Source: Clostridium sp. AF15-31 (lineage in GTDB: Bacteria; Bacillota; Clostridia; Lachnospirales; Lachnospiraceae). From it: DNA of 64,000 nucleotides. The notes beneath the pieces were generated by a model, which saw only the letters and a program-made list of their open reading frames with translations, searched no databases and had not been told where the DNA came from. The stretch is from assembly GCF_003461625.1 (NCBI RefSeq), contig NZ_QTXL01000001.1, forward strand, positions 520,612 through 584,611, read 5' to 3'. The translations under genes were made by a program, and so were the position numbers. Positions 6,309 through 47,749 of this stretch are shown piece after piece. The stretch's first letter is position 1, and each line of letters starts with the position of its first letter.

Positions 6309-6342
6309 TATTTGAAGAAAGAAGCTGGGAAAGGAGGAAAAA

Positions 6343-7302: not shown

Positions 7303-7352
7303 GCCCAGAGGACAGAAAGAAATTAAAAGAGCACGTTCTGGAAGAACTGGAT

Positions 7353-8513: not shown

Positions 8514-8531
8514 GAAAGGAGGGGCCAGGAT

Positions 8532-9275: not shown

Positions 9276-9278
9276 TGG

Positions 9279-10595: not shown

Positions 10596-10617
10596 AAGAA
10601 CAAAAAGAAGGAGGAAA

Positions 10618-10640
10618 CGGCAGTGGAATAGTCATTGCTG
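10618..10640 (+). promoter_or_regulatory. hairpin between Shine-Dalgarno and start codon of the pilin gene
   Basis: AAGGAGG (10608-10614) is followed after three A residues by an 8-bp stem (CGGCAGTG with CATTGCTG, two G-U pairs, 7-base loop). The ATG at 10653 lies 12 bases beyond. Folding would bring the ribosome binding site near the start codon. A GTG-GAA-TAG mini-frame sits in the 5' arm. Confidence 0.5.
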
Positions 10641-10652
10641 ACAATAAAGAGT

Positions 10653-10823
10653 ATGAGAAATGTGAAGAATTTTTTATTAGATGAAAGTGGAATGGGAGTT
10701 GTAGAGATCCTTTTGATCACAGTTGTATTGATCGCCATGGTACTTATCTTTCAGGAGAAGATTACAAGTCTTGTGAACAAGATCTGGACCTCGATCGGTA
10801 AGAGTGCGAAGAAGATTTATTAG
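10653..10823 (+). CDS. Flp1-like type IVb pilin
   Basis: A 56-residue small pilin: a short basic leader (MRNVKNFLLDESGMG), then the Glu of the processing region (GVVEILL), one hydrophobic helix and a basic tail. It should be cut by the prepilin peptidase and form the pilus shaft. A TTG at 10635 would add six residues, but ATG 10653 gives the leader length expected for the family. The strong AAGGAGG upstream is 38 bases away, with a hairpin between. A GTG closer to it leads to an in-frame TAG after two codons and cannot start the pilin. Confidence 0.8.
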   Translation: MRNVKNFLLDESGMGVVEILLITVVLIAMVLIFQEKITSLVNKIWTSIGKSAKKIY

Positions 10824-10841
10824 TAAGGAGACTCTGCAGAT

Positions 10842-12230: not shown

Positions 12231-12271
12231 ATATAAAACATAGAAATATCAGATGGAAAGGATGGTGTTAT

Positions 12272-13237
12272 ATGCTCTCTTATTATATATTTTGGCTGCA
12301 GTCTATTATCCATGCGGTGGCATATTCCATTTCCAAAAATAATAAAATCAAAAGTATTTCTCCGTCTCTCCAAGACCTGAACAGAAAACATTTGAGCAGA
12401 CAGTATGGTAAGAGAGTGTATAAGACCATTCCTTTCTTTCAGAGGATATTTTGTATATGGAACAGGCAGGAGGGTAGTGCCACGGTGGAGGCAGCCCTGA
12501 TCCTGCCGCTTTTTATCATGGCAGCAGTTGTGTTTTTCTGGATGGGAAATCTGTTGCAGACACGGTTGATCGTCTATGATGCCATGCAGGACACTGCACA
12601 GTGCCTGGCGGAATATCAATATGCGTATTCATATGTACAGGATGAAAAAACAGTGGATTTACCGGGGAACGGTGTCAATGTTCTGACAGCAAAAGAAAGA
12701 CTGCAGCATTATCTGGATATATCCCCGGTGGATGCTTCCTGTATTGTGGGTGGAACCGGAGGGATTCTGGTTACAAGATCAGCTTACAGTGAAGCAGATG
12801 GCTGCATTGATCTTAAGCTGCGATATAAACTGCAGATCAATGTCCCATTTTTTGGAGAACTGACCTGGAAGGTTCAGGAACAGATCCGGCAGCGTGCATT
12901 TATCGGTATGCAATTGGAAAATAATGAGACAGAAGAAAATAGATACGTTTATATCACGGAAACCGGAGAGGTCTATCATACAAGCAGAACCTGTTATCAT
13001 ATAAAACTTACGATCCGGCAGATTCCGGATGGAGAGCTTTCTGATAGGTATCAGAATCTGTCTCCTTGTGAGCGGTGTGCGGAGGGCAGGACGACGGATG
13101 GAACGGTATATATAACGGAGACGGGAGACCGATACCATCTCTCTGTTTCTTGTTCTGGATTAAAACGAACGGTTATGCGTGTCAAACAAAAGAATGTTGG
13201 AAGCATACCACCATGCAGCAACTGTGGTAACGGATGA
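12272..13237 (+). CDS. TadE-like pseudopilin with duplicated Cys/His motif
   Basis: A 321-residue protein. After a basic leader of about 65 residues comes the TadE-type segment EGSATVEAALILPLF and a membrane helix. The outside region ends in two copies of a motif of the form VYITxTGxxYHxxxxC, an LKxT/IKLT stretch and a PCxxC (C-terminal about 95 residues). The same motif is found in other secreted clostridial proteins and looks like a small metal-binding or DNA-binding module. The leader is longer than usual for TadE. ATG 12272 has GGAAAGGATG before it. Confidence 0.78.
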   Translation: MLSYYIFWLQSIIHAVAYSISKNNKIKSISPSLQDLNRKHLSRQYGKRVYKTIPFFQRIFCIWNRQEGSATVEAALILPLFIMAAVVFFWMGNLLQTRLIVYDAMQDTAQCLAEYQYAYSYVQDEKTVDLPGNGVNVLTAKERLQHYLDISPVDASCIVGGTGGILVTRSAYSEADGCIDLKLRYKLQINVPFFGELTWKVQEQIRQRAFIGMQLENNETEENRYVYITETGEVYHTSRTCYHIKLTIRQIPDGELSDRYQNLSPCERCAEGRTTDGTVYITETGDRYHLSVSCSGLKRTVMRVKQKNVGSIPPCSNCGNG

Positions 13238-13291
13238 AATTCTTGTAAGGGTGCATTTTGTAAGGGCGCAGGGACAGGAAAGGTGAAAGAT

Positions 13292-13765
13292 ATGAATTCT
13301 GGAAAAAAGGATGATCGTGGAACGATCGTGATCGAAATGTGCATTATTATGCCAATCGTGATCACTGTTATATTTGTTGTTATCAATATGATGATCGTGC
13401 AGTTGAATAATGGAATTGCAACCGGCGAGGCATATCATGTGGTCTGTAATCGGGAACGATATATGTCTGGAAGTGGAAACAGCGCAGAGGATACATTGAA
13501 TCAGGCGTTAGATCAGATGGTCAGGCCATCCATGCAGCTTCTGGATGAACTGGAAACAAGCGTGCGCTTTCGTCCTTCTGGAAATGCGTTACTTTCCGGT
13601 ATAACAGGAACCATAGATGCAGTTGTCAAATATGAAGAGCTGCACCCGGGAATTGGACTACTGACAGATAAAAAGGCAACACAGAGAAAAGTAAAGATTG
13701 AGAAAGAGATCCGGGATATCAGCAATAATCTCAGGAGGTGGCAGTTGTATGGAAAAACATTATGA
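13292..13765 (+). CDS. TadE-like pseudopilin
   Basis: A 157-residue protein with leader and helix DRGTIVIEMCIIMPIVITVIF, the TadE/F signature with its conserved Glu, then a soluble outside domain rich in helices. ATG 13292 is chosen because AGGAAAGG lies about eight bases before it; GTG 13283 would add three residues and overlap that site. It overlaps the next gene by 17 bases, which implies translational coupling. The likely role is a minor pilus component or assembly factor. Confidence 0.75.
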   Translation: MNSGKKDDRGTIVIEMCIIMPIVITVIFVVINMMIVQLNNGIATGEAYHVVCNRERYMSGSGNSAEDTLNQALDQMVRPSMQLLDELETSVRFRPSGNALLSGITGTIDAVVKYEELHPGIGLLTDKKATQRKVKIEKEIRDISNNLRRWQLYGKTL

Positions 13766-15122
13766 CACTGATGGGATAAATGTATATCTGATGCTTACCG
13801 ACACCGATTATCAGGTCTCCTATGAAACCAAAATGCTTCAGAACAACTGCATCCCAGATGTTCTTCCATTTAACGTGATGTTCATAGATGGAGATGCGAT
13901 TCCTTGTTATGAGGTTAACGGACTGACAGAATTTGCAGTGATAGAGCAGACGATCACGATAACTCCGGTGCTTATATTACAACTGTTTCAGGAACTGGTT
14001 ATGGTATTTCACCAGCTTGGCAGATATTTGCTGTCCGTTAATAATCTGATCCTGGTGGAAGATTGTATCTTTTATGATATAGCGCAGAAATGCTTTGGTT
14101 TTATCTATCTTCCGGGATATCAGAGTGGAGTCCGGGAGCAGATGCGGAGGCTGTTAGATCAGGTGATATGCAGGATGGATCATGCAGACCGGGCGGGCAG
14201 TGACCGGGTATATGATCTGTATCAGAAGATCATGGATGCAAATTGTGATCTTGAAAAGCTGGTAGATTTTTTTACAGAATTCCGCACGGAAGAAAGCGGC
14301 GATACAGATGGTACGGGAAATACAGATATATATAGAACGGAAGAAACGGGCAAGACTGAGGAAGAGGAAGAGGCAGCAGAACTGGCTGCATTTTTGAGAA
14401 AAGAACCAAACCGGAAGAAATGGAAGAAATCGAACCGGAACAGGACGATAGTACAGAGTGACATTGACGATGATAAGACATCGGTTCGGACGATCGTGTA
14501 TAAGACGGTCGTTATTGCCTGTATGCTTGCAACGGTGTTGTTTGGGATCAGCTATGGATGGATGCAGTACCGGGCAAATGGACGGATCCAACATATGAAA
14601 CCTTTATTCGGTGTATGCATCTTACTGGCAGTGGAATTATTTGTCTGGATGGAGCTGTTCTTGACAGATCAGACTGGAAAAGAAGAGGAGGTTGTTGAAC
14701 CTTGTATACAGGAACAGGATATAACTATATTTCCGGCAGCAGCGGATGGAAATGGACAACCCGCAGCCGGTGATACACAACAGGAGACAACCATACTTCC
14801 GGCAACCGATCCGGTATGCATGTTAGTTCCGGTTGGAGGGCAAGCGGAAGCCACATCGAATCCGGTGATCTGTCTGGATACACTTCCAAGATTGATCGGA
14901 CGTGGGGATATGGCAGATTTTTGTATTTCCGATAAGTCTGTGAGTCGGGTTCATAGCAGGATCCGATATGTCGATCATAAATATGTACTGGAGGATATGG
15001 GTTCGACAAATGGGACATATGTAAATGGTTATCCACTGCGAGTGGACTATCCGGCAGTGGTATTGCCCGGAGATATTATTTCATTTGGGAATATAGAATA
15101 CGAGCTGCGGGCTCAAATATAG
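13749..15122 (+). CDS. FHA-domain membrane protein of the Tad locus (DUF6382-like N-terminus)
   Basis: A 457-residue protein. Residues 1-175 form a conserved cytosolic domain that I match to DUF6382. A charged linker and two membrane segments (about 255-320) follow. A C-terminal FHA domain (about 375-457) shows IGRGD, SVSRVHSRI and GSTNGTYVNG, the phosphothreonine-binding residues. It should read Ser/Thr phosphorylation and tie the Tad machine to a kinase, although no kinase gene lies nearby. ATG 13749 is preferred over an upstream frame start because AGGAGGTG (13733-13740) is eight bases before it. Confidence 0.8.
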   Translation: MEKHYDTDGINVYLMLTDTDYQVSYETKMLQNNCIPDVLPFNVMFIDGDAIPCYEVNGLTEFAVIEQTITITPVLILQLFQELVMVFHQLGRYLLSVNNLILVEDCIFYDIAQKCFGFIYLPGYQSGVREQMRRLLDQVICRMDHADRAGSDRVYDLYQKIMDANCDLEKLVDFFTEFRTEESGDTDGTGNTDIYRTEETGKTEEEEEAAELAAFLRKEPNRKKWKKSNRNRTIVQSDIDDDKTSVRTIVYKTVVIACMLATVLFGISYGWMQYRANGRIQHMKPLFGVCILLAVELFVWMELFLTDQTGKEEEVVEPCIQEQDITIFPAAADGNGQPAAGDTQQETTILPATDPVCMLVPVGGQAEATSNPVICLDTLPRLIGRGDMADFCISDKSVSRVHSRIRYVDHKYVLEDMGSTNGTYVNGYPLRVDYPAVVLPGDIISFGNIEYELRAQI

Positions 15123-15163: not shown

Positions 15164-18100
15164 ATGAAACAATACAGAAATAAAATTTTACTGATCGTAC
15201 TGGTGGGAATTCTTCTGCTGATAAATCTGCCATTTCATGCGATCCTTCAGACAGCATCCATGGGAGGAGATGCGGAGCAGGCGGTAACGCAGTTGTTTGA
15301 AAAGAATGCGACAGCAACGGATACGGATGCAGACAGGGCAACTCCGGAGGATGCAGACAGAGCAACTGTGGAAGACGCAGATGGGGTGGCTGCGAAAGCT
15401 GTAGATGGGGAGGCTGCAGAAGATACCGACAGAGCAACCTTGGAAGATGCAGATGCGATGACCACGCAGGATATAGCATTATCATATGAAGATCAGGCAA
15501 AACAGATCGCTACGATCTCAGATGCCATATCGAGAGATGTATATACTCCGGATATGAAAGTAGAAATAAAGAAAGAGAAAAAGTCGTATATATTTAATAT
15601 AGATGCATTGGCGACGGTAATGTCCTTTCCGATGTTACATTCAGAATTTGTCGTTGGATACAGACTGGGAAGAACAGAAGCGGGAGATACCTGCAGAGAT
15701 TTCCGGATCTTTCAATATCATGGCATTACGGATTATGAGAAACTGTTTTCCGTATATTGTGGAGACAAGGATCTGGATGTTCCGTGGTATGGAGAATATG
15801 TTTCGGATGGAAAGCATTTGCAGGGAACAGCAGCAACTGTATACAGTGATGATACGACAGATGGTTATATACATGCAGGCAGCGGACTGTTAACAGCCGA
15901 TATCCGGAAAGCATTGTATCAGGGATATAAGAACAGGCAGTCTCAAAGCGCATTACAGGATAATCTGAATGCGATCCGGCATCATGGAAAAAGCATGAGC
16001 GGAGAAGTTCCATATACGAGAGCGCAAGCAGAGATCCGGATCGGAACAGAAACTCCAAAGACAGAGCAGATTGATATATCACCGGGGCAGCCGGAGACGC
16101 GATGGAAATACCGGTATACCATACACATGGAAGAAGAGAGTTTGTTAAGCACTGTGTCTCCGGATGGAGTATATGCAAAAAGAACGAAGATGCGTACGGT
16201 CACAGGAGGTCAGAATACGTTTCATATCATAGTGCCGGATACAGATATTAAACTGTGGGTATGTACGGACTGGAAAGGTTCGATTGCAGATACGGACTGG
16301 AAAGCATACCGGTCAGGAGAAGAAGCTGTATTAAAGACAGGAAGCAGATATTTCTTTACTGCCGGTACGGATAAGAAGGGTGTGAGCAGACTGTCAAAGA
16401 CCTTTGCCGAACGGGATGGGTTTACAGCTTATGCTGTCTGCCCGGACAACAAAGAGATTCAGACCTGCTTTGCAGGTGTGCTTTATGAATATGCAATAGA
16501 GATGGTGATTAACTGGGGAAGTGAATTAAAAACCGGAAAACTGCATCTGACAAAGCTTGGTGATGGTTCCTTGAGTAATCTGAAAGGAATAAAATTTTAC
16601 CTTTATAAACTGGACGAGCCATTTGCAGATCTGTCAGAGGGGAAAGCGGTAAAGATCGGAACATATACGGTTAATTCCAAAGGAAAAGGTGTGCCAACTT
16701 ATATTACGGAAAAAGGCAGATTTTATGGAGCAAAAAGTAATTATGCCGGAGAGGATATAGATGGATCCACATGCCGGAATATCTACAATCTGCCACCGGG
16801 CTATTATATGCTGCATGAGGATGCTGAACTGGCACTGGCAAGAGGATATCTGCCCGCGATAGACCATTATTATGAAATTACAGATAACCAGCTGGAATAT
16901 GAGTTTGTCATTCAGAATGTCCGGGGCGGGCTCAGTCTTCAAAAAACCAGTGACTCTCCGGAACTTACAGGAGCAGATGGCAAAACGGATGCATATAGTC
17001 TGCAGGGAGCCAGATATAATGTGTATAAGGTTGGGAAAAAGAATGATACATCAACCGATGCTTATGTCTGCACCTTTACAACCGATGCATCCGGAAAAGG
17101 AATTGTTACAAAATATAATTCGGATGCAGGATATTATCCGGTATATGGTTCTGATAACCGGATATATGAAGTGCGCGGAGTTCCGGTTGGTTGCTGGTAT
17201 TACATTGCGGAAATAGGGAAAAAGAAAGGGTGGAATGGAAATGAATATTCCTATGCCAGAGGTTATATTGTAAATAAAGAGGATAAAAAAGCGGCTTCCT
17301 ACTATCAGAAGTGGATCTATCTGGATAAGGAGGATGGTGGAATCGGAGTTTCAGAAAATTTGGAGAAATATCCCAAGCAGCAGATCGATGTACTGGAATC
17401 GCCGATTACGATCGGAATTCAGCTTCATAAAAGCAGTGCGATGAAAGAAATTTCCGATATGGGTGGATATACATTTGCCGATATTCAGTATCAGGTATAC
17501 ATGGCGGACAAGAATGGAAGGCAGGGAACCGGAAATCTCTATGTAGGTACATTTACAGTGCAAAAGGATGGAACGGGAATTGTTACAGATATAAACACGA
17601 AATTTATTCCGACCGGAGGAAATAAAACGATCGTTTCGCTTAAGAAAAAAGGGACAGATACGATCTCCGGACTACCGTGTGGAAGCTATTATGCAAAGGA
17701 AACAAAAACAAACCGTTATTACAGGCTGAATACAGATCCGGTAAAAAAAGAATGTCTGTCCAGTGGCGGAAGAGAAACAGGAAAAAAAGAGATCGAGCAT
17801 GTGATCGAAGTTACAGATCAGCCAAATACCGGAGAACTGTATCTGGAAAAGAAGAGCGCCGGTGAAGAATGGACGGATGAAAATACAGCATATTCGTTAT
17901 TACATGCAGAATATAGTGTTTATATGGTGTCAGGAAAGAATGCTCCATATAAAGAAGAAAATCAGGTTGGCATATTTACGACAGAAAAAATGAATGCGGC
18001 AAATACCGTGATTGGAATACCGGAGATTAGGAATTCCTGCGGAACCGGAAATGCATTCCGAATGATATCAGGAGAGGTCGTTTCCATTCAGGCAGATAAG

Positions 18101-19762
18101 AGTAAGCATTGTTTTACCGGATTGCCATTTGGCTGGTATGCAGTAAAGGAAAAGCGTGCTCCAAAAAATTACAAACTGGATGCGGATGTACATTATATTT
18201 GTATATCCCCGGATACGGTGGGAAACAAGATTAATGCAACCATGCAGCTTGCAGAGAAAGAAATGGTATATCAGGGAAAACTGTCACTGACAAAATATGA
18301 CAGAGAGAATGGAACCGGAACTGCAAAATATGGAGCATCTCTTGCGGATGCAGTCTTTCAGGTGCGGTATTATAAGGGACTCCTGCAAAAAACAGAATTG
18401 GCAGCATCTGCTGCATACCGAACCTGGTATATTAAGACAGTATATAACGAGCAGACCGGAAGTTATGAGGCAAAGCTGGATGCAGCTTATCTTACCGGAC
18501 AGAGTGATCCTCTATTTACGGATAAAAAGACAGGTGCAGTAATTCTTCCGGCTGGAACCGTGGTCATAACAGAATACCAGCCACCAAAGGGGTATATCCT
18601 GCCGGGACATGGACAGGGTTATATCGAAGTAACCGGACTGACAGGAGAGAAACAGCAAATTACCGGAAATGAAATTGTACTCCATCTGGATGCAGGAAAT
18701 CCGAATAAAGAGCTGCAGACTTTTTCTGTGGAGAGTGGGAATGTCATAGAACCGGAATTGATAAAGGTGTACGAGCAGGCAGAACGGGTGGATATTGCAT
18801 TTGACAAGATCAATGCAGGAACCAGAGAATCAATGCAGGGAATTGTATTTCGAATTTCGTTGCTGGATGAAGCAGGAAATCCTGTTGAGAGCCATATTGC
18901 GGTAACTGGAGTAAATGGACGTTTTGATTCGGCCGGACGTAAGGAAAGTGGTAAATTCAATATCAATGATGATATCTATGAATACAACCAGATGCAGGAA
19001 GAAAGTGTATGGAAGGAATATGATATGACAGCCGGGATCTGGTTTTGTGGAGATGAGAGCACACAGCGGGAAGTTTTCGATGAAGATATTATGGCAGATG
19101 GAGCTACAAAAAGCGAAGAAAACACATCCATAAGAGAAGCTTCAGAAACAGAAAAAGCGGATCTGGGAGCGTTGCTGCCGGGAACTTACATGATCGAGGA
19201 GCTGCCTTGTAAAGGTAACCGGGGATTTGTAATAATGCAGCGTCAGATCGTGGACATTGATAGTGCAGAGACAATCCGGGAGCTTGGTACATATGAGAAT
19301 CAGTCTTCGGAAGATACAACAGAACAGACGACAACCGAAACCACGACTGGTGACACAACGGAGACAACAACCGAAGCTACGACCGGGGACACAACGGAAA
19401 CCACAACCGAGTCTACAACCGAACTGACGACTGAGATCACGACCGAATTGACAACAGAAACCACAACTGAGGCGACAACCGAGATTACGACCGAGGACAC
19501 AACGGAAACTACAACCGAGTCTACAACCGAACTGACGACTGAACAGACGACGGAGATCACAACAGAAACTACAACAGAGCTGACGACCGAACCGGACACC
19601 GGAGACAGGAAGACTCCCCCGGTCAGAACCGGTGACTCGTCAGGAGTGATCCTGTTTTCTTATATCGGGCTTGGAGCAATGTTTGGCGCAGCAATTCTTG
19701 TGATCGTAAAAAGACGGCAGGGAAAACATGGAAAAGATAGACCGGGCAACAGGAAACATTGA
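15164..19762 (+). CDS. large Cna-B/SpaA-type surface adhesin, probably sortase-anchored
   Basis: A 1532-residue protein. An N-terminal signal segment (residues 7-30) is followed by a degenerate Asp/Ala-rich repeat (50-100), an N-terminal domain (about 105-310) and a series of prealbumin-like Cna-B/SpaA domains (about 450-1370). A Thr/Glu stalk, the motif PPVRTGD in place of LPXTG, a membrane helix and a basic tail end it. Cys199 (VYCGD) and Gln288 (RAQAEI) could form an internal thioester, as in Gram-positive thioester adhesins; this is a guess from spacing. It lies 41 bases after the FHA gene at the end of the Tad locus, before a strong terminator, so it probably belongs to the same regulon. 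It should bind host or mucus ligands. Confidence 0.8.
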   Translation: MKQYRNKILLIVLVGILLLINLPFHAILQTASMGGDAEQAVTQLFEKNATATDTDADRATPEDADRATVEDADGVAAKAVDGEAAEDTDRATLEDADAMTTQDIALSYEDQAKQIATISDAISRDVYTPDMKVEIKKEKKSYIFNIDALATVMSFPMLHSEFVVGYRLGRTEAGDTCRDFRIFQYHGITDYEKLFSVYCGDKDLDVPWYGEYVSDGKHLQGTAATVYSDDTTDGYIHAGSGLLTADIRKALYQGYKNRQSQSALQDNLNAIRHHGKSMSGEVPYTRAQAEIRIGTETPKTEQIDISPGQPETRWKYRYTIHMEEESLLSTVSPDGVYAKRTKMRTVTGGQNTFHIIVPDTDIKLWVCTDWKGSIADTDWKAYRSGEEAVLKTGSRYFFTAGTDKKGVSRLSKTFAERDGFTAYAVCPDNKEIQTCFAGVLYEYAIEMVINWGSELKTGKLHLTKLGDGSLSNLKGIKFYLYKLDEPFADLSEGKAVKIGTYTVNSKGKGVPTYITEKGRFYGAKSNYAGEDIDGSTCRNIYNLPPGYYMLHEDAELALARGYLPAIDHYYEITDNQLEYEFVIQNVRGGLSLQKTSDSPELTGADGKTDAYSLQGARYNVYKVGKKNDTSTDAYVCTFTTDASGKGIVTKYNSDAGYYPVYGSDNRIYEVRGVPVGCWYYIAEIGKKKGWNGNEYSYARGYIVNKEDKKAASYYQKWIYLDKEDGGIGVSENLEKYPKQQIDVLESPITIGIQLHKSSAMKEISDMGGYTFADIQYQVYMADKNGRQGTGNLYVGTFTVQKDGTGIVTDINTKFIPTGGNKTIVSLKKKGTDTISGLPCGSYYAKETKTNRYYRLNTDPVKKECLSSGGRETGKKEIEHVIEVTDQPNTGELYLEKKSAGEEWTDENTAYSLLHAEYSVYMVSGKNAPYKEENQVGIFTTEKMNAANTVIGIPEIRNSCGTGNAFRMISGEVVSIQADKSKHCFTGLPFGWYAVKEKRAPKNYKLDADVHYICISPDTVGNKINATMQLAEKEMVYQGKLSLTKYDRENGTGTAKYGASLADAVFQVRYYKGLLQKTELAASAAYRTWYIKTVYNEQTGSYEAKLDAAYLTGQSDPLFTDKKTGAVILPAGTVVITEYQPPKGYILPGHGQGYIEVTGLTGEKQQITGNEIVLHLDAGNPNKELQTFSVESGNVIEPELIKVYEQAERVDIAFDKINAGTRESMQGIVFRISLLDEAGNPVESHIAVTGVNGRFDSAGRKESGKFNINDDIYEYNQMQEESVWKEYDMTAGIWFCGDESTQREVFDEDIMADGATKSEENTSIREASETEKADLGALLPGTYMIEELPCKGNRGFVIMQRQIVDIDSAETIRELGTYENQSSEDTTEQTTTETTTGDTTETTTEATTGDTTETTTESTTELTTEITTELTTETTTEATTEITTEDTTETTTESTTELTTEQTTEITTETTTELTTEPDTGDRKTPPVRTGDSSGVILFSYIGLGAMFGAAILVIVKRRQGKHGKDRPGNRKH
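19315..19600 (+). repeat. low-complexity Thr/Glu codon repeat (wall-spanning stalk)
   Basis: ACA/ACG/ACC and GAA/GAG codons alternate over about 285 bases in the adhesin gene and encode TTE, TTET and TTEL units. Such stalks span the peptidoglycan. Similar Thr/Glu/Pro linkers occur in the surface proteins at 30566 and 50653. Confidence 0.9.
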
Positions 19763-30303: not shown

Positions 30304-30332
30304 TTGACATTCCGCATACAAGGCTATAAGAT
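30304..30332 (+). promoter_or_regulatory. sigma-A type promoter ahead of the cobalamin riboswitch
   Basis: TTGACA (30304-30309), 17 bases and TAAGAT (30327-30332) place the transcript start near 30339, which is the first base of the riboswitch P1 stem. Confidence 0.7.
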
Positions 30333-30338
30333 AAACTA

Positions 30339-30508
30339 TGTATGTTCTATATTGGATCTGCTCGGACGTGTCTTTAAATGTCCGATCAGGGGGAAATTCG
30401 GTGAGAATCCGGTGCAACCGCCATTACTGTGTTAAGATCATAAGATGGTCTTTTAGTCAGAATACCCGCAGATTTATTCTACATACAGCTTTTGGGCGAG
30501 GGAAAAGC
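30339..30508 (+). promoter_or_regulatory. cobalamin riboswitch
   Basis: The conserved core is present: GGTGAGAATCCGGTGCAACC, then CATTACTGT, and the B12-box-like AGTCAGAATACCCGC. A P1 stem is visible (TGTATGT 30339-30345 with ACATACA 30481-30487, and GATCTGC with GCAGATT), and a CGGAC/GTCCG stem at 30363-30384. A downstream hairpin (30488-30508) has the loop GGGCGAGGG, whose GGCG can pair with CGCC at 30419-30422, the expected loop-loop contact. No terminator follows, so control is probably of translation of the gene at 30566. Confidence 0.88.
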
Positions 30509-30565
30509 AAGATTTAATTCCCAGCTTATAAAAAAATATACAATAGAAGAAAGGAATCGAAACGA

Positions 30566-33500
30566 ATGAAACGAATCAGGACACTGGTGCTTTCGTTTTT
30601 ATTTGCGTGCGCAGTTTTATTCGTGCCATTTGCAGTAAATGCAGGTTATGGTATTCAGAATGTTGCGGCAGCGGAAGAAGATGAAAGTACGACCGATTAT
30701 AGCACAAAATATGTTGTGCTGTCTCTTGAGGGCTTTACGATCGGACAGGGATTTTATATCACACCGACCCGTATGTCTTATGAAGAGATTGGAAATGTCT
30801 GGAAACAGGAAGGGATAGACATTGATCTGTCTAAATTGACCGTTTCACAGGCAACTTATGCATTTTTCAAGAAAGCAGGACTTCAGACAAAGCCTGCAGG
30901 ATCAAGTGCCTATAATGACAGCAACTTTTATCTGGCAAATATCAAAGGCATTGATAAAGGAACTGTAAAAGTTCCAACAGCACTCTTGGATGCATATAAG
31001 ACACGTAACAATGGAAATGATCTGGAACTGGAGGAGAAGACAGGTACAGACCTTGAAGAACATGATTACACATCATGGTCCGGCTGGATGATCACAGTTG
31101 ATAATGTGCCTTGCAATACAAGCGCAGGCGCATATCTTGTAGATCAGGGAACCGGGGCAGATACCAATGTTCTCCGTTGGCAGTTTACACTTGCCGGTTA
31201 TGGAGCAGATATTGGATGTGGATTTGAAGGCTATGAAGCATATTATGTAACCCAAGACAAGACAGAGTTATATACACTTTATGCAGAGAATGAAGAAGAG
31301 ATCGCAAAGGATGCCTCATTAAATGCAGAACTTCAGGCAGTTATGGCAGATCTGGATGCATCAGCAGATGATGTGGCAGCTGCTGTAAAGAAGATCAAAG
31401 CATTAGAAGAGAAACAGGTATCGATTAAGATGAACAGTAGTGTTCCATATATGACACTTACAGATGCAGATGGAAATACAGTGGCGGCTGGAGATCCGGA
31501 TAGTAATTATGTATACACAGCGAAGCTTGCAGAAGGTACTTATCGCTTATCAACATATAAAATGAGTGGTACTAATAAAGTTGATATGGGTTCAATTGAC
31601 CTGATCGTAACCGATGAAGCAGAGCAGTCATATGCAGTATATAGTCTGTCAGGTATTGCATGTACAAATAAGGATGCCGGCAGTGGAAAATTTTGGCAAG
31701 AAGGAGAAGACTTTACTTTTAATGTAAAGGTAGTATCTCCTGATAATGTTGATCGTCATGCTACACTTGGTTTGATGCAGGCGGAAACAAGTCAGAAAGC
31801 AGCTCAGTATGCAGTGCCTTTTTATTATGCGGATATGGTATCTGTAACTGTAACACCTAAGGGAGACCATGCACAGAATTATATAGAAAAGACAGTTTCA
31901 AAAACACTTACAGCAAACAGTTCATATGGGTATTCGATCAGTGCACCGGAAGCCAGAAAAGTAAGTGTGACATTCCCGGAAGGAGCAGAACTTAGACTTG
32001 GAACATTGTCTACATATTATATTTATAAAGATGAACCGGGAACAAAGATAGAAGCCAAAGAGCCGGGATATGAGACATATGAATTTACTGTCGGAGCTGG
32101 TATTACATATTACTATCGTGTGACAGGTGCCGGTGGTGTTACCTACTGGGATTGGTTCTCTACCAATAAAGATGCAGATTATATGGTTAGTAAGGCGGAT
32201 ATGTATATCGGGGATGATTCTTTTAATCCGGATACTATATATCATGATATGTCTCAGAATAAGTATGATGTAGCAGATATTTATCTTACATCAGATGAAC
32301 ATGGATACCTTTCTATGAAGAAGGGTGAGACATACAGTCTGGAATGTTTCCGTAACTGGCAGGCGATCGAAGGTACTTCGAATGCTAAGAGTGCAGAACC
32401 GGATTATCATTACACGGTTATTGATGAGAATGGAAATCCATCAAATGATGTGATCACAGTTACACCGGGAGCACATTCAGAAATAGCGGAGATTCAGGCG
32501 AAATCCGAAGGAACAGCAATTCTGCTTGTGACCTACGATGCACAGATTAATATGCAGGGATATACGAAGTATACCAAGTTTAGTGCAATATGGCCTGAAA
32601 ACACCGGTGTTGTAGTGGTTACTGTTGATAAGGATGGCACAGCTATTCAGACCAACATGACCATAAATGAAGGTAAAAATAAAAAAGAGGAAAAAGTAAC
32701 TGGCGACAGACTGGATGCACAGCTGGATGTTCTTTATTATGAGGCAGGAACAGACGGAGCTGAGTATACATTTACACCGGAGAGTGGAGTATCCGTATCT
32801 GTCCTTCGTCCAGAGATCATAGACAATAAGCTGACATACGGCGGATTTTCTGCAAAGAACATCACAAGAAATTCAGATGGCAGTTATACAGTCGCAGGGC
32901 TTACAGAAGGACCAAATATTGTTAAAGTTACAAAGAATGGTGTCAGTACTTATCAGGTGATACGTGCAAAAGAAGTTGCAGTATCATACAAATATAAAGA
33001 TGCAGATGGAAATGAAATAACCGCAGATGAATTGACAGCGGGTGATTCCATTGAGATCAGCTATGGAGAAAGAAGTGAAGACGGTAAGCGTTCTTATAAT
33101 GGCTTATACAATCCTGCCAGTAAATTAGCAGGTGTGTATAATATGGATGCAGCAATCTGCTTTTTTGACACAACAGGAACAGAATATGTTGGAAAACTAA
33201 ACCAGTATATGTTTGCATCAACACCGGCTTCACAGACGATTACGGTTACGATTCCGACTTATTTTGCAGGTGATACATTCCGTCTGACAGGATGTCTGAA
33301 AAACGGAATAGGTGGATGGAGTGCTTATGGTTCACCATACGGTTCTCATCGGGCAGTTCGCCATGACACAGGTGTACCGGTACAGATGGCAGCCAGCCGT
33401 CATACCGCTTATATGTGTAATCTTCCGGATGTAGAATTCAAGCTTGTAGCTTCTGATTTCGTACCGGTAACATTGAATATAACAGACAGTCAGACGAAAA

Positions 33501-36500
33501 AACCGGTTACAGATTATACAATTCAGATCTTAGATGAAGATAAGAAAGAAACAAAAGTAACGGATGGAGTTTTCAAGGGATTTGTAGGAAAAACATATTC
33601 ATATGTCATTTGTGCATCAGGTTATATATATAAGACAGGAACGATTGAGATTCCGGAGGATACAGACAGTATTACAAAGACGATCCGTCTGACACCTGCC
33701 GATGCTCAGGCGTGGGATGGACAGACTATGACTGAACCGAAACAGTCAGATGGTGTATACCAGATTGGAACCGGAGCAGAACTTTACTGGTTTGCAAATG
33801 AAGTAAAGACAAAATACACGATCAATGCGGTTCTGACTGCAGATATCGATCTTGCAGGATATAAGTGGACCCCTGTCAAACCGAACAGCTCAAGTTATGG
33901 TTATGCAGGAACATTTGATGGACAGGGGCATACAGTCAAGAATCTGTATGTGGACAATGTTCAGGATGCCGGCTTATTCGGATCAGTAACAGGTCAGATC
34001 AAGAATCTGACAGTAGAAGGAAATATTTCTGCAAGCACAGCAACACATGCCGGCGGAATTGCAGGTATGCTTAAGGAAAATGCAGGAAAAAATGTATTGA
34101 TCTCAAATTGTGTTTCAAAGGTTAATATCACATTTACAGGAACTTCAAATTATGTTTATGCAGGTGGTATCGTTGGATATTGCGGAGCAAATTCAGATAC
34201 CAGTACAAATGTGATTGACAACTGTAGCTATTACGGCACGATCACTGCTAAAAATGGCAGTTGCGCAGGTGGTATTCTTGGTGCAATGACAAATAGAAAT
34301 GTTACAATCAAGAATTCCTCAAATTATGGAACGGTTATAGCAAAGAATAACGTAGGTGGTATTCTTGGTATTCATAATGAAGCCAGTTCAAAAGCACCTG
34401 CCGGTAAGATCATTGACTGTTATAATGCCGGTTCAGTATCAGGTCAGACAAATGTAGGTGGAATTGCCGGATGCTTTAAAGGCAAGGCAGCAAACAACGC
34501 AGGTGTAGAGATGTCAGGTTGTTATAGTGGCGGAGAAATTCTGAGCACCAGCCAGACAAAGGAACAGACAATATTTGCAGGACAGTCAGCATATATGACA
34601 TTATCTGATTCTGTTTATTCATGTGCAGATGAAGCAAGCAGCACATTTACAGAGGATCAGGCAGTATATGTATCTCCTGCTGATATAGCAGCAGTAAAGA
34701 AGCTGACAGCAGAAACAGTTTCAAAGAAAGCTGATAAGGATACGCTGGATCGTATAGCTCCAGTTATCAATGTGCTTGCAAATGTTCCGTTATCAGCAGA
34801 AGATCAGACATTTGTAGATCTTTATAAAGAGTTACAGGCAGCGGTTGCTGATCAGAAACATGTTAAAGTCGGTGTATATGACTATACAGCAACAGCAGCG
34901 GGAATTAAGGGTGCATCTGAAAATGGTGTGATCCTTGATGATGTAGAAGTTGATGCAGCGACTGCAGTGGATGCTGTCGAGAAGGCGTTAAAGGAGAACA
35001 ACATTCCATATGTTCTGGCAGATACAGGATATGGACCATATATGGAATCCATCAATGGACTGACAGTTCAGGCTGAATATACGATGTCAGGATGGATGTT
35101 CTCATACAACAAAGATGATTTCTCCAATATGGGCTTATCAGCTACAACGATCCAGGATGGAGACGTATTAGAATTCCACTATCAGCTTACAGGTGGCGAT
35201 GTTGCATCTGCATATTCAGGTCTTCCAACATTGAAAGAGCTTATAATTGGAAGTAGTCAGATGAACTTTGAGGTATCATCTACATACGATGCTCAGTGGA
35301 ATCAGATCATTACTTATAGGATGAATGGAGAAGAACTTGCCGGAACCGGTACAGAGAATGATCCATTTATTGTAAACGTAGATTTATTCAAGGACACAGA
35401 CCTTACAGCTCTGCCAGTCAGCTATAAGACAGAGGCAGATTCACATTATGTAACAGTTGATGGACTTTCCGATGTTATGGATCTGACAGATGGAGTGCTG
35501 TGTCATGTAACATCCGGAGCAGGAAGAACTGCATGGTACAAGATCACTGCGGCAGCAGAGACAGAAAAGGCATTGACAGATGCAAATACAAAGGTAGTAG
35601 TTGCAGATGCAGTTTATACCGGAGAAGAATTAAAACCGGAAGTAAAGGTATATGTAAACGGTAATCTGATAACAGAAGAAAACTATGATGTCGTATTTGA
35701 AAATGCGCAGAATGCCGGAACAGCTACCTGTACGGTAACAGGTAAGGGCGAATTCTCCGGACAGGTTCAGACAACCTTCGAGATCAAGAAAGCAGAACAG
35801 CAGATCACAAATGTACCGGAAGACCGGAAGGTCGTATACGGACAGAAGGCAGATATCGAAGTTGCAGCAGGAGCAAAGACAACTCCTGTATTATCATCTG
35901 ATAAAGAAGCTGTTGTATCAGTAACAGAAGATGGCAAGCTTCAGATCAATGGTATCGGAACAGCAGTTATTACAATTACAGCACCGGAGAGTGACAATTA
36001 TCTGGCAGCTACAGCTTCCTTTAAGGTTACAGTTATGGGAGATCTGAGCAAGGCAACAATTGCTCCGGTTGCTTCTGTAGAATATACCGGAAAGGTGATC
36101 GTACCGGAACTTACAATCACAGATGGCACATATCAGCTTGTAAAGGATGTTGATTATACGGTTTCAGGACAGCGTGTATCTGTCGGAAAGGCTACAGCAA
36201 CGATTCGTGGAATCGATGGAAGATATGCAGGTTCACAGACAGTTACATTTGAAATTGTGAAGGCAAAACAGGAAATCCAGGTTGCATCTAAGAGCATAGA
36301 GGTAACAGAAGGTACAGATCCGTTTGTTCTTGCAGCCGATGGTCATGGTACATTGACATTCGTTTCATCGGCACCTGCAGTTGCAGAGATCGATGATACA
36401 GGTCTTGTAACAGTAAAGGCAGCAGGATTTACAGATATTACGATCAAGACTGCCGGAACAGCAAATTACGAAGCTGCAGAAACAGTAGTTCGTCTGACTG

Positions 36501-37372
36501 TTAAGAAAAAGGCGGATACAGAAGATCCTGATAAGACAACAGAAGATTCTTCTGATTCAACTACAGAAGAACCGACAACAGAGAAACCAAGTACAGAAGA
36601 GCCAACTACAGAGACTCCGGATCAGAAGGTTACACTGACTGCCAAAAACACTGTTGTAACAGTTCCAAGTGTTACATATACAGGTAAGGCACAGAAACCG
36701 GCTGTAAAGGTTACAGTATCCGGCAAGGCATTATCAACCGATGATTATTCTGTAGCATATTCAAATAACAAGAATGCAGGAATCGCAAAGGTAGTTATTA
36801 CCGGTAAGGGCAACTATACCGGTAAAGTAGAAAGCACATTTGTGATCAAGAAAGCATCACAGACGATCCAGAAGCAGACAGTATATGCATACAGTAAGTA
36901 TGTGAAGATGAAGGCTTCTGCAAAGGGCAAGGTTACTTATACATCTTCTAATAAGAAGATCGCAACTGTAAATAAGAAGACCGGCTTTGTTACCGCAAAG
37001 AAGCCAGGTAAGGTACAGATCAAAGTAACAGCCGCAGCAACAGCAAATTACAAGAAGAGTACAGGAACGATCACCTTGATTGTTGTACCTGCAACACCGA
37101 CTGTAAAGAAGGCTGCTGCATATAAGACCAAGGCAATCAAGGTTTCTTACAAGAAGGTATCAGGTGCAAGTGGTTACCAGATCACATATGCAACAAATAA
37201 AGCATTCAAGAATGCAAAGAGTACATATGTAAGCAGCAAGAAGTCAAGTGCTGTGATCAAGAACCTGAAAAAGGGTAAGAAATATTATGTCAAGGTAAGA
37301 GCATATAAGAAGATCAATGGAAAGAAGTTCTACAGTGTTTACAGTGGTAAGACATCTGTAAAGACAAAATAA
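30566..37372 (+). CDS. giant secreted protein with two transcobalamin-like (DUF4430-like) domains
   Basis: A 2268-residue secreted protein. The signal peptide is about residues 1-27. A first DUF4430-like domain (about 165-225) shows SGWMITVDNVPC and VLRWQFTL; a second (about 1440-1546) shows SGWMFSYNKDDFSNMG and DGDVLEFHYQL. This fold is the beta domain of human intrinsic factor and transcobalamin. GLUG-type repeats (about 1110-1305), bacterial Ig-like domains (about 1665-1980), a Thr/Glu linker and C-terminal Ig/FnIII-like domains rich in Lys complete it. No LPXTG motif or C-terminal helix is seen, so anchoring may be by the basic C-terminus. A cobalamin riboswitch precedes it, which points to cobalamin or corrinoid capture. 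Confidence 0.85.
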   Translation: MKRIRTLVLSFLFACAVLFVPFAVNAGYGIQNVAAAEEDESTTDYSTKYVVLSLEGFTIGQGFYITPTRMSYEEIGNVWKQEGIDIDLSKLTVSQATYAFFKKAGLQTKPAGSSAYNDSNFYLANIKGIDKGTVKVPTALLDAYKTRNNGNDLELEEKTGTDLEEHDYTSWSGWMITVDNVPCNTSAGAYLVDQGTGADTNVLRWQFTLAGYGADIGCGFEGYEAYYVTQDKTELYTLYAENEEEIAKDASLNAELQAVMADLDASADDVAAAVKKIKALEEKQVSIKMNSSVPYMTLTDADGNTVAAGDPDSNYVYTAKLAEGTYRLSTYKMSGTNKVDMGSIDLIVTDEAEQSYAVYSLSGIACTNKDAGSGKFWQEGEDFTFNVKVVSPDNVDRHATLGLMQAETSQKAAQYAVPFYYADMVSVTVTPKGDHAQNYIEKTVSKTLTANSSYGYSISAPEARKVSVTFPEGAELRLGTLSTYYIYKDEPGTKIEAKEPGYETYEFTVGAGITYYYRVTGAGGVTYWDWFSTNKDADYMVSKADMYIGDDSFNPDTIYHDMSQNKYDVADIYLTSDEHGYLSMKKGETYSLECFRNWQAIEGTSNAKSAEPDYHYTVIDENGNPSNDVITVTPGAHSEIAEIQAKSEGTAILLVTYDAQINMQGYTKYTKFSAIWPENTGVVVVTVDKDGTAIQTNMTINEGKNKKEEKVTGDRLDAQLDVLYYEAGTDGAEYTFTPESGVSVSVLRPEIIDNKLTYGGFSAKNITRNSDGSYTVAGLTEGPNIVKVTKNGVSTYQVIRAKEVAVSYKYKDADGNEITADELTAGDSIEISYGERSEDGKRSYNGLYNPASKLAGVYNMDAAICFFDTTGTEYVGKLNQYMFASTPASQTITVTIPTYFAGDTFRLTGCLKNGIGGWSAYGSPYGSHRAVRHDTGVPVQMAASRHTAYMCNLPDVEFKLVASDFVPVTLNITDSQTKKPVTDYTIQILDEDKKETKVTDGVFKGFVGKTYSYVICASGYIYKTGTIEIPEDTDSITKTIRLTPADAQAWDGQTMTEPKQSDGVYQIGTGAELYWFANEVKTKYTINAVLTADIDLAGYKWTPVKPNSSSYGYAGTFDGQGHTVKNLYVDNVQDAGLFGSVTGQIKNLTVEGNISASTATHAGGIAGMLKENAGKNVLISNCVSKVNITFTGTSNYVYAGGIVGYCGANSDTSTNVIDNCSYYGTITAKNGSCAGGILGAMTNRNVTIKNSSNYGTVIAKNNVGGILGIHNEASSKAPAGKIIDCYNAGSVSGQTNVGGIAGCFKGKAANNAGVEMSGCYSGGEILSTSQTKEQTIFAGQSAYMTLSDSVYSCADEASSTFTEDQAVYVSPADIAAVKKLTAETVSKKADKDTLDRIAPVINVLANVPLSAEDQTFVDLYKELQAAVADQKHVKVGVYDYTATAAGIKGASENGVILDDVEVDAATAVDAVEKALKENNIPYVLADTGYGPYMESINGLTVQAEYTMSGWMFSYNKDDFSNMGLSATTIQDGDVLEFHYQLTGGDVASAYSGLPTLKELIIGSSQMNFEVSSTYDAQWNQIITYRMNGEELAGTGTENDPFIVNVDLFKDTDLTALPVSYKTEADSHYVTVDGLSDVMDLTDGVLCHVTSGAGRTAWYKITAAAETEKALTDANTKVVVADAVYTGEELKPEVKVYVNGNLITEENYDVVFENAQNAGTATCTVTGKGEFSGQVQTTFEIKKAEQQITNVPEDRKVVYGQKADIEVAAGAKTTPVLSSDKEAVVSVTEDGKLQINGIGTAVITITAPESDNYLAATASFKVTVMGDLSKATIAPVASVEYTGKVIVPELTITDGTYQLVKDVDYTVSGQRVSVGKATATIRGIDGRYAGSQTVTFEIVKAKQEIQVASKSIEVTEGTDPFVLAADGHGTLTFVSSAPAVAEIDDTGLVTVKAAGFTDITIKTAGTANYEAAETVVRLTVKKKADTEDPDKTTEDSSDSTTEEPTTEKPSTEEPTTETPDQKVTLTAKNTVVTVPSVTYTGKAQKPAVKVTVSGKALSTDDYSVAYSNNKNAGIAKVVITGKGNYTGKVESTFVIKKASQTIQKQTVYAYSKYVKMKASAKGKVTYTSSNKKIATVNKKTGFVTAKKPGKVQIKVTAAATANYKKSTGTITLIVVPATPTVKKAAAYKTKAIKVSYKKVSGASGYQITYATNKAFKNAKSTYVSSKKSSAVIKNLKKGKKYYVKVRAYKKINGKKFYSVYSGKTSVKTK

Positions 37373-37494: not shown

Positions 37495-37592
37495 GCAATA
37501 TACCGGGAAACATTGTATGGTATAGAATATAGTTTATGGGAACAGATACAGCACATAGCTGTAGAAAAATACAGGAAAGAGGAAAGCTGATT

Positions 37593-37889
37593 ATGGCAGA
37601 AAACGATCTGACAAAAGAAAACTGTATGGAAATGCTGCGTGATGCATATAAACGACTGGAACGCTATCCGAAAAAATCAGACTTCACGGTGGAAGAGGTT
37701 GCTGCGGTCAAATCCTATTTTGGCCCCTGGCCAAGAGCACTGGAAGCGTGTGGGATACTGCCGGATCGTTCAGTGGAACGGGAGGCAGCAAAGCTGCAGA
37801 AACGGATCGCTGCGAAAAGGCGGCAGACACAGTATAAGCTGGAACGTCAGGGCAGATTAAAAGAGCAGACAGATGATAAGAAACAATGA
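37593..37889 (+). CDS. small protein with a homing-endonuclease-associated repeat
   Basis: A 98-residue protein whose residues 8-60 match the HNH-associated repeat pattern: LRDAYKRLERYPKKSDF, then YFGPWPRALEACG. The rest is a basic helical tail. No HNH nuclease domain is present, so this is a stand-alone repeat, probably DNA-binding. The ATG at 37593 has AGAGGAAAG before it; the longer frame from 37536 lacks one. Confidence 0.72.
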   Translation: MAENDLTKENCMEMLRDAYKRLERYPKKSDFTVEEVAAVKSYFGPWPRALEACGILPDRSVEREAAKLQKRIAAKRRQTQYKLERQGRLKEQTDDKKQ

Positions 37890-44971: not shown

Positions 44972-47569
44972 TTATTTCAATTTTACATAAGCAGCTGAAA
45001 CATAGCCGTTGTAGGTTCTACCGTCCTTTGTGAAGGAAATCTGATACCAGTCCTGATATAAGCCTTTGAGTGTAAGCTCTGTTCCATAAGAAACTGTCTG
45101 AATAATATCATATCCGGTTCCGGGACCTTTTCTTACATTTAAGACACTGCATATAACCTGCATCTTCTGGCTGCCTTTCTTGCTAGCGGTAAGTGCAGAT
45201 CTGGTTCCCTTGTAAGCCTTTCCATTTGACTTGTTGTAGGCAACGATGCAATAGCTGTATTTGGATGATCCGGCTTCATTGATAATATAGGAAGAAGCGG
45301 CGGAGTTGGTGATCGTTTTCAGCTTTGTATACTTCTTTGTTTTATTTGTATAACGATAGATATAATACCCATCTGCATCTGTCTGAGCCTTCCATGTCAT
45401 TAACTGCTTGGAACCGTAGCTGTTTACAGCTACTCCTGTTACCTTTTTCGGTGGAATCTTAACGGTTATCGTAGCTGCATCACTGATCGAAGTAGCACCG
45501 TTTCCGCGGTAATAGGTTTTAACCTTGAATTTATAGGTTCCGTTTGCGGACAGTCCCTTTTGTGTCCAGGAAGTCTTATCGGAAGATAATTTTGCAATCC
45601 GTTTCCAGGAAGAACCTGTGGTTCCGTTTTTCATATAAACAAGATAACCTGAAATATTCTTAGAAGATTTCCAGGAAATACTTACAGAGTTATTCTTGGA
45701 TGGGATAACGGACACGCTTCTGGCATTTGCCGGTTTTGTCATAATAGATACTGTTTTGGAACGATCTGTACGGACATTGTTGCCGGATTTCTTGTAGTAA
45801 GCAACAACACAGTATTTGTAAATGGTATTGCCACTTAATTTTTTATCTGTATATGAGGTTGTGCTTTTATTTGTGATCGTTTTAACGCGTACCCATTTAC
45901 CATTGTCATTTAAACGGTAAACGATATAGCCGGCAACATTTATCTGACCATTCCATTTAACGGTTACGGTATTCTTTGTAGAGGAAGCAGTTACACCTGT
46001 GGCCTGGCCGGGACGGGTGTTTCCGTTTATGGAAGAGGAGTATTTGAAAAATGCGCGGCGGCTGCCTTCTTCAAAGTAAGCACGCACTTTATAAGTGTAA
46101 GTTGTTCCGCTTGCCAGCTTGGTATCTGTGTAAGTATTGTTTTTGGCTCCTTTTACATAAGCAACGGTTTTGTATTTACCGGTTGCCGGATTAAAACGTA
46201 CGATGTGGTAGCCGGAAACTTCGGTCTGCGGAGTCCATTCTAAAGTAAGAGAATCCTTTGCCCGTTTGGCGATTGATACCTTATCAATATTTTTTTCCTG
46301 TGTAGCGGCATGAACGATATTGGACTCTCCGCCGTTGTAAGCACCGGAATTTGTTCCGTAGAATGCAAGTACCTTGTAACTGTATAAGGTTTCTACCTCC
46401 AGACCCTTGTCTGTAAATGAAGTATTGCTTGCGCCGACTGTCGTTCCGACATGCTTATATGTATTTGTGCTCTTGTCAAGACGATATATCTTATAACCAT
46501 ATACATACGGTACTTTATTCCATTTCAAGGATGCCTTCTGCATGGAAGTTGAAGTGATATGCAGATTCTTAACGGCTTCCGGTTTTTTGATGTACCGGAA
46601 ATTCATATCAACATTACCGCTGATGCCGGCTACAGAGCCGGAAGATGTGTACTGCCAGTAGGAATATTTACCTTCGTAAGATGCATGCACACTGTTGGTT
46701 GCAGAATCCCATCCCGGATATTGGGCGAGCCAGATCGGAAACCGTTTTGCCAGTACATCTGCATATACATCATCTGTGAGTAAAGATTTATTTGCATAGA
46801 CCATAGCGGTGTAATTATTCTTCTCTACTTCTTCACAGAAAGCAGTACAGATCGTAGTTGCGGCAGCAGGACTTAAGTTTGCCCGTGCAAGTCTGCCGGA
46901 ATGATTGATGTAGTATTCGTAGTCCATAACAACCGGAAGCTTTATGTTATAGCCCTTGATCAGCTTCATGGTGTAGTTGGCCTCTGCTCTTGCTTCGGCC
47001 GTTGTGATCGCCTGGGAATAGACATATACGCCGACATCCAGTCCTGCGGCGAGAGCACCTTCGATGTTTTCCTTATATAATGCGTCTGCTTCCAACACAC
47101 CGGATTCTGTGGTACGGAGTGCGACACGGATCAGAGCAAAATTAATTCCGTCTGCCTTGACCTTCTTCCAGTCGATATTGCCCTGCCAGCGGGAGATATC
47201 AATACCATTTATAATGTCATAGCCCTTGAACTGTGCATCATGGGCATAGATGCTGGTATCAATGGAAGCCAGAGAAGGATTCTTGATGCTGTCAGATTTT
47301 TTCTGAAGCTCCTGAATTGCCTGTGGATCTTCTCCGTATTTTTTATTGATAAGGGCAATCTGTTCCTTTGTTAATGAAGAACTGTCAAATGTTCCCGTTT
47401 CTACCATTTCATCAATCTCGTCAGCATATGAAATGTTGGATGACTGGGTAGAAACTGTTGTGTACGCATATTGTGACTGTGCATAGGTCTGACCGGCGAT
47501 CTTAGGTGCGCTGAAGATCGTGAGACCGGCGACAGCACTGCACAATACCGTGGTAATAAGTTTTTTCAC
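44972..47569 (-). CDS. GH25 lysozyme-type cell-wall hydrolase with FnIII and SH3 domains
   Basis: An 865-residue secreted protein. The signal peptide (about 1-28) is followed by a GH25 muramidase domain (about 115-320) with GIDISRWQGNIDW and the catalytic VVMDYEYY segment. Five fibronectin type III domains (about 325-795) and a bacterial SH3 domain (LNVRKGPGTGYD, about 800-865) complete it. It should cut peptidoglycan glycan strands, with SH3 as wall anchor. GTG 47569 is used because TTGGAGG is nine bases upstream; the TTG at 47578 is too close. Confidence 0.9.
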   Translation of the reverse strand: MKKLITTVLCSAVAGLTIFSAPKIAGQTYAQSQYAYTTVSTQSSNISYADEIDEMVETGTFDSSSLTKEQIALINKKYGEDPQAIQELQKKSDSIKNPSLASIDTSIYAHDAQFKGYDIINGIDISRWQGNIDWKKVKADGINFALIRVALRTTESGVLEADALYKENIEGALAAGLDVGVYVYSQAITTAEARAEANYTMKLIKGYNIKLPVVMDYEYYINHSGRLARANLSPAAATTICTAFCEEVEKNNYTAMVYANKSLLTDDVYADVLAKRFPIWLAQYPGWDSATNSVHASYEGKYSYWQYTSSGSVAGISGNVDMNFRYIKKPEAVKNLHITSTSMQKASLKWNKVPYVYGYKIYRLDKSTNTYKHVGTTVGASNTSFTDKGLEVETLYSYKVLAFYGTNSGAYNGGESNIVHAATQEKNIDKVSIAKRAKDSLTLEWTPQTEVSGYHIVRFNPATGKYKTVAYVKGAKNNTYTDTKLASGTTYTYKVRAYFEEGSRRAFFKYSSSINGNTRPGQATGVTASSTKNTVTVKWNGQINVAGYIVYRLNDNGKWVRVKTITNKSTTSYTDKKLSGNTIYKYCVVAYYKKSGNNVRTDRSKTVSIMTKPANARSVSVIPSKNNSVSISWKSSKNISGYLVYMKNGTTGSSWKRIAKLSSDKTSWTQKGLSANGTYKFKVKTYYRGNGATSISDAATITVKIPPKKVTGVAVNSYGSKQLMTWKAQTDADGYYIYRYTNKTKKYTKLKTITNSAASSYIINEAGSSKYSYCIVAYNKSNGKAYKGTRSALTASKKGSQKMQVICSVLNVRKGPGTGYDIIQTVSYGTELTLKGLYQDWYQISFTKDGRTYNGYVSAAYVKLK

Positions 47570-47749
47570 GATAAGCAACCTCCAATTTTTATTTATCCTT
47601 AACTAACTTATAATATTTTTTTTACATATAAATGTCAATAATCTGGGGAAATTTAAGAACTATGAAAAAAACAGGTAAAAGATCAGATAAAATCTTTACC
47701 AGAAATTTGCACAAAAAAAGCATTTTTGTAGTGCCAAGTCAGTCGATGA

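Follow-up and report, generated by a model that had tools for sequence, protein, structure and literature searches.

A cobalamin riboswitch precedes the gene of a giant secreted protein with two DUF4430 domains, a likely surface corrinoid capture protein of a gut commensal of the Clostridia

The window, that is the whole stretch of 64,000 nucleotides that was analysed, contains the gene of a giant secreted protein which is preceded by a cobalamin riboswitch and which carries two domains of the DUF4430 family, the second with a predicted transcobalamin-type fold (Table 1). Since a riboswitch of the B12 family and two domains of the intrinsic factor type come together in one gene, the giant protein is probably an extracellular catcher of B12. 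We consider it likely that it is a stand-alone surface capture protein which is repressed by corrinoids. To our knowledge, surface corrinoid capture by Gram-positive gut bacteria has received little description compared with the BtuB/BtuG systems of Bacteroides. The riboswitch ahead of transcobalamin-type domains is independent evidence for a corrinoid ligand of this bacterial domain clade; new in the protein of the window are the location away from transporter genes, the lack of a toroid and the presence of two beta domains.

Table 1. Positions in the window of the giant gene, its leader and the regions of the encoded protein
Feature	Positions	Strand	Basis
Promoter-like site TTGACA-17-TAAGAT	30304..30332	+	consensus scan, 10/12 matches
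Cobalamin riboswitch aptamer RF00174, compact form	30341..30487	+	covariance model
Possible switching hairpin GCUUUU/AAAAGC, immediately 3′ of the aptamer	30488..30508	+	folding of 30476-30580, model only
Likely ribosome binding site AGAAAGGAA	30548..30556	+	sequence and position ahead of the ATG
Giant secreted protein, 2268 aa	30566..37372	+	open reading frame; full-length relatives P0002-P0031
N-terminal DUF4430 variant, residues about 44-225	30695..31240	+	Pfam stretch, hhalign, modelled within residues 44-1045
Middle region, residues 280-1045, string of Ig-like beta domains	31403..33700	+	structure model
GLUG-type region, residues 1060-1340	33743..34585	+	match to PDB 3n6z
C-terminal DUF4430, residues 1429-1543, predicted transcobalamin-beta fold	34850..35194	+	
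Beta domain following the second DUF4430, residues 1548-1666	35207..35563	+	
Basic C-terminal tail, residues 2020-2268, Big_2 and weak fn3	36623..37369	+	

The riboswitch called by the first-pass annotation is recovered by the Rfam covariance model with 43.1 bits, above the gathering score of 31.5 (E 1.6e-7; same score in a repeat run), and it is the sole match above the gathering threshold within the window. The aptamer is compact, with 7 bases standing in for 56 model positions in the alignment; no kissing loop was identified in it by eye, and the open reading frame starts 78 bases 3′ of it. Folding of the whole leader is no more stable than that of shuffled sequences (z −1.10, stability equalled or exceeded by 25 of 200 shuffles), and thus it is the covariance model that supports the riboswitch call. 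This null result and the modest score, compared with scores of up to 129.5 bits in the relatives, would fit a degenerate or chance match that has no regulatory effect. We regard such a match as highly improbable, as the curated cut-off is passed, as, at the riboswitch density of the family sample described below, a given gene should have about 1e-4 riboswitches in the 500 bases ahead of it, and as the pairing of riboswitch and DUF4430 recurs in other genomes. The sequence named as a consensus promoter is present, but shuffled versions of the region contain on average 0.8 such sites, so that it is weak evidence by itself; the consensus scan is indistinguishable from chance and was rejected as a means of assigning a promoter. 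A search for terminator-like sites at both ends of the giant gene was negative.

When the region 30476-30580 is folded alone, a GGGAA/UUCCC hairpin is predicted, and the four bases of the Shine–Dalgarno GGAA have unpaired probabilities of 0.93, 0.38, 0.41, and 0.97. Enforcing the GCUUUU/AAAAGC hairpin lowers all four values to 0.05 or less, that is, the bases become paired; for the enforced state the switching model, which has no control, relies on the pair probabilities only. The enforced fold is thus a candidate OFF state in which the ribosome binding site would be closed. Cobalamin riboswitches usually repress upon ligand binding, and taken together with the folding this suggests that the control is translational and negative. 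The riboswitch appears to serve the giant gene alone, as the next gene on the same strand begins only at 37536, even though the giant gene is not followed by a recognizable terminator-like site. This gene (37536-37889) lies directly 3′ of the giant gene and encodes a small HNH_repeat protein (PF18780), and the upstream gene encodes an Amidase_3 protein on the opposite strand (Pfam). In agreement with the initial statement that no btu transporter gene is adjacent, neither B12-related nor ECF/ABC transporter genes were seen by eye among the translations of the window apart from those of the shortest open reading frames, and Pfam found no ECF/ABC transporter gene among the six neighbours. Elsewhere in the window, a surface protein of 1532 aa whose repeats are rich in TTE (15164-19762) adjoins pilus-like genes of the Flp/Tad type (about 5796-15122; both judged by eye in the translations), and the product of 44972-47578 is a secreted GH25 lysozyme that carries an SH3_3 domain and four fn3 stretches.

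The giant gene is an open reading frame of 2268 codons whose product has a start that resembles a signal peptide (judged by eye, no predictor), as had been proposed. Its size had been called unusual, which does not hold: the listed relatives reach 3,720 aa and the length is ordinary for the family. A pattern search found no C-terminal sortase signal of the LPxTG type, again as first noted, and only an internal NPDT at residue 554. The C-terminal tail contains 54 K/R and 3 D/E and includes a Big_2 domain (residues 2094-2158, Pfam). The middle region was modelled with a pLDDT of 85.7, and stretches of it resemble Big_2-type, S-layer, and pilin domains. GLUG repeats, which the first-pass annotation had listed, give no Pfam match in the protein at E ≤ 1, but there is indirect evidence for them: residues 1076-1339 match PDB 3n6z (E 6.9e-8), the relative P0034 has a precomputed PF07581 match, and the relative P0066 has a GLUG score just below the cut-off.

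Both DUF4430 domains are found by Pfam (PF14478, 46.6 bits with a curated cut-off of 23.8, two stretches, the best at residues 1465-1540). By profile alignment the N-terminal copy matches the C-terminal copy with an hhalign probability of 99.4 and small DUF4430 proteins with 99.7; its assignment thereby stands, but it is longer than the residues 160-230 first given for it. The model of the C-terminal domain has, by secondary structure, a beta-grasp fold with a hairpin inserted after the helix, the arrangement by which the transcobalamin-like SLBB clade is recognized, and its top structural matches are the animal B12 carriers (sequence identity 12-20%). Two tyrosines of the hairpin, Y1482 and Y1492, are invariant across the protein and 12 relatives. 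Thus, the expected transcobalamin-type fold is predicted for the C-terminal domain by modelling and fold comparison, and for the N-terminal domain it is suggested by profile homology. In the model of residues 44-1045 (1002 residues) the listed fold matches are Ig-like domains without transcobalamin, which does not exclude the fold for the N-terminal domain. With a whole-protein profile of 24 sequences, transcobalamin was not retrieved from the PDB; the match to it came from the fold comparison alone. An alpha toroid was detected in the protein neither with the toroid of the relative P0025 as query (E 1e-3) nor in Pfam. A lone beta domain can hold cobalamin, as the title of PDB 5np4 describes human transcobalamin's beta domain in complex with cyanocobalamin.

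The pairing of riboswitch and DUF4430 was counted in two sets of genomes. The family sample consists of 60 genomes from the family of the genome G088, whose SecA is 79% identical to that of the window. It has 39 DUF4430 matches over the cut-off in 28 genomes (40 rows, one below the cut-off dropped) and 78 riboswitches over the cut-off in 50 genomes, the riboswitch search having been run with stricter filters that lose weak matches. A riboswitch lies upstream on the same strand within 1 kb for 10/39, within 5 kb for 17/39, and within 10 kb for 20/39 of the matches (the last in 18 genomes), and none lies downstream on the same strand within 10 kb. The expected counts are 0.01, 0.06, and 0.11, which are rough values, since placement is taken as uniform, a flat genome size of 2.9 Mb is used, and kinship as well as multiple DUF4430 matches per gene string are ignored. 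The second set comprises 26 genomes hand-picked for containing relatives of the protein; here 39 of 88 DUF4430 matches (90 rows, two below the cut-off dropped; 124 riboswitches over the cut-off) have a riboswitch on the same strand within 10 kb upstream, in 15 genomes, compared with an equally rough expectation of 0.85 from rounded genome sizes, and 9 pairings are found downstream.

Among the loci that were fetched, 17 genes encode relatives of the middle region; four at contig ends were excluded, and 8 of the remaining 13 have a riboswitch at most 1.02 kb upstream and 5 have none. The starts of the relatives were set mechanically at the first start codon after a stop, the value of 1.02 kb was measured from the downstream piece of a frame interrupted by a stop (L072), and in the locus maps two of the riboswitches (L090, L092) score below the cut-off. 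Two of the genomes, G391 and G233, look like close relatives from the equal lengths of the open reading frames around the gene, and counting them once gives 7/12. These genomes of 1.7-1.9 Mb contain 12 and 15 RF00174 matches, 10 and 13 of them over the cut-off (loci L067 and L068). In three of the loci without a riboswitch Rfam found none at E ≤ 1. At L067 a middle-region protein without a Pfam DUF4430 and with three CWB2 wall-binding stretches starts 27 bases behind a riboswitch. Thus, what the riboswitch accompanies is the surface-protein family rather than DUF4430 alone, and relatives without a riboswitch exist.

At other loci, transporter genes accompany relatives. At L085 the first protein behind the riboswitch (1114 aa) combines a toroid and SLH domains with two DUF4430 stretches. 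It is followed by a DUF4430 protein of 205 aa, a 292-aa protein that has no Pfam match, a double ABC ATPase, and the S component of an ECF transporter. A similar block is found at L079 behind a middle-region relative and an SLH-DUF4430 protein. From its position, the 292-aa family, which occurs in 11 of the 30 loci examined, would be the ECF transmembrane component. Among the 120 relatives listed, at least 36 have a toroid that resembles the one in P0025; in a sequence search the P0025 toroid found squalene-cyclase-like chains and not transcobalamin. Small DUF4430 proteins without a stalk also lie behind riboswitches, for example, frames of 135-160 aa at 0.25-0.53 kb. These loci bear on an alternative in which the riboswitch would read the niche from the corrinoid level and the giant protein would be a B12-regulated adhesin, attaching by its Ig-like stalk and binding a glycan or protein with its DUF4430 domains. 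The long stalk with S-layer- and pilin-like stretches, the GLUG-type region and the riboswitch-linked relatives that lack DUF4430, as at L067, are in line with such an adhesin; the ECF transporter genes encoded with relatives, the toroid in many of them, and the stalk-less proteins behind riboswitches argue against it, and we consider it unlikely.

In 37 genomes of the genus, 397 of the family, and 392 of the order of G088 no close orthologue but at best distant relatives were found, and in the search at order level only the genome G114 matched at E 1e-40. There, a row of giant relatives, one frame with 3648 aa, lies on contig 10 (384-432 kb, L086-L088), next to a string of DUF4430, ABC, and ECF-like genes with a riboswitch. 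A scan of genome contigs yielded one locus (L001), which matches the C-terminal repeats only, a scan of viral contigs yielded no relative, and tblastn against plasmids gave partial matches in 12 records, mostly to the GLUG-type region.

The first-pass annotation centred on the idea that regulation and fold indicate a single ligand. This idea is strengthened by the recurrent pairing of riboswitch and DUF4430 and by the ECF transporter genes beside relatives, but the protein of the window has no toroid. We suggest the following mechanism. When cofactors of the B12 type are scarce, the leader would leave the ribosome binding site open and the giant protein would be made; cobalamin bound to the leader would close the site. 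The protein would be exported and held at the wall, probably via its basic tail, and would carry its two transcobalamin-type beta domains on a long stalk of Ig-like and GLUG-type domains. By binding corrinoids these domains may raise the local concentration for a transporter encoded elsewhere, which would take over the ligand and complete the uptake. For capture we counted the placement of the riboswitch, the fold match, the pairing statistics, the ECF genes, the toroids, the two invariant tyrosines, and 5np4; against it the lack of toroid and transporter genes in the window, the 5 of 13 relatives without riboswitch, L067, and the null results of the profile search and of leader folding. The SecA encoded in the window is 100% identical to a protein assigned to an uncultured Coprococcus sp., a genus of the Lachnospiraceae. 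One strain other than that of the window, Coprococcus sp. ART55/1, counts on both sides: according to a study (PMC7360928) it has almost no genes for cobalamin biosynthesis and is probably auxotrophic, and it nonetheless grew without cobalamin in the medium of that study.

On a wider scale, riboswitch-controlled surface capture of corrinoids by an intrinsic-factor-type beta domain might be widespread in Clostridia and might in Coprococcus take the form of a stand-alone, toroid-free receptor with two beta domains holding the corrinoid, a generalization to which we give slightly less than an even chance. If it is true, a common commensal of the human gut could be a competitor of haptocorrin and intrinsic factor for B12, as the two toroid-free beta domains are of their fold type.

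Secreted bacterial transcobalamin-like domains were proposed by Burroughs et al. 2007 (PMC1796856) to scavenge B12 or precursors. This wording would also suit capture of another tetrapyrrole or of a corrinoid precursor, for example, cobinamide, in place of complete cobalamin; control by a cobalamin riboswitch is compatible with both ligands, and we consider this alternative unlikely. The proteins described there share with the giant protein a secreted beta-grasp domain whose helix is followed by a hairpin, and the build of large multidomain surface proteins. The same text notes toroid fusions and CbiO/CbiQ-like neighbours and does not contain the word riboswitch, whereas the window has a riboswitch ahead of the gene, two domains, and neither toroid nor transporter. 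The proposal made in silico in 2007 is now directly testable. Among the papers listed by searches of the open literature, no title or beginning of an abstract joins DUF4430 to cobalamin riboswitches; subscription papers and regulon databases lie outside this search and may contain an earlier notice. The riboswitch-led ECF operons at L079 and L085, with their DUF4430, SLH, and toroid domains, resemble the window in the leading riboswitch and in encoding related surface proteins, but the giant gene stands alone without SLH domains and without transporter genes. Human intrinsic factor, haptocorrin, and transcobalamin combine a beta domain with an alpha toroid, in contrast to the giant protein, in which no toroid was detected. 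In Bacteroides, BtuG and BtuH capture corrinoids at the surface together with BtuB at the outer membrane. The likeness of the giant protein to BtuG and BtuH lies in the proposed role, the capture of corrinoids at the surface of a gut bacterium.
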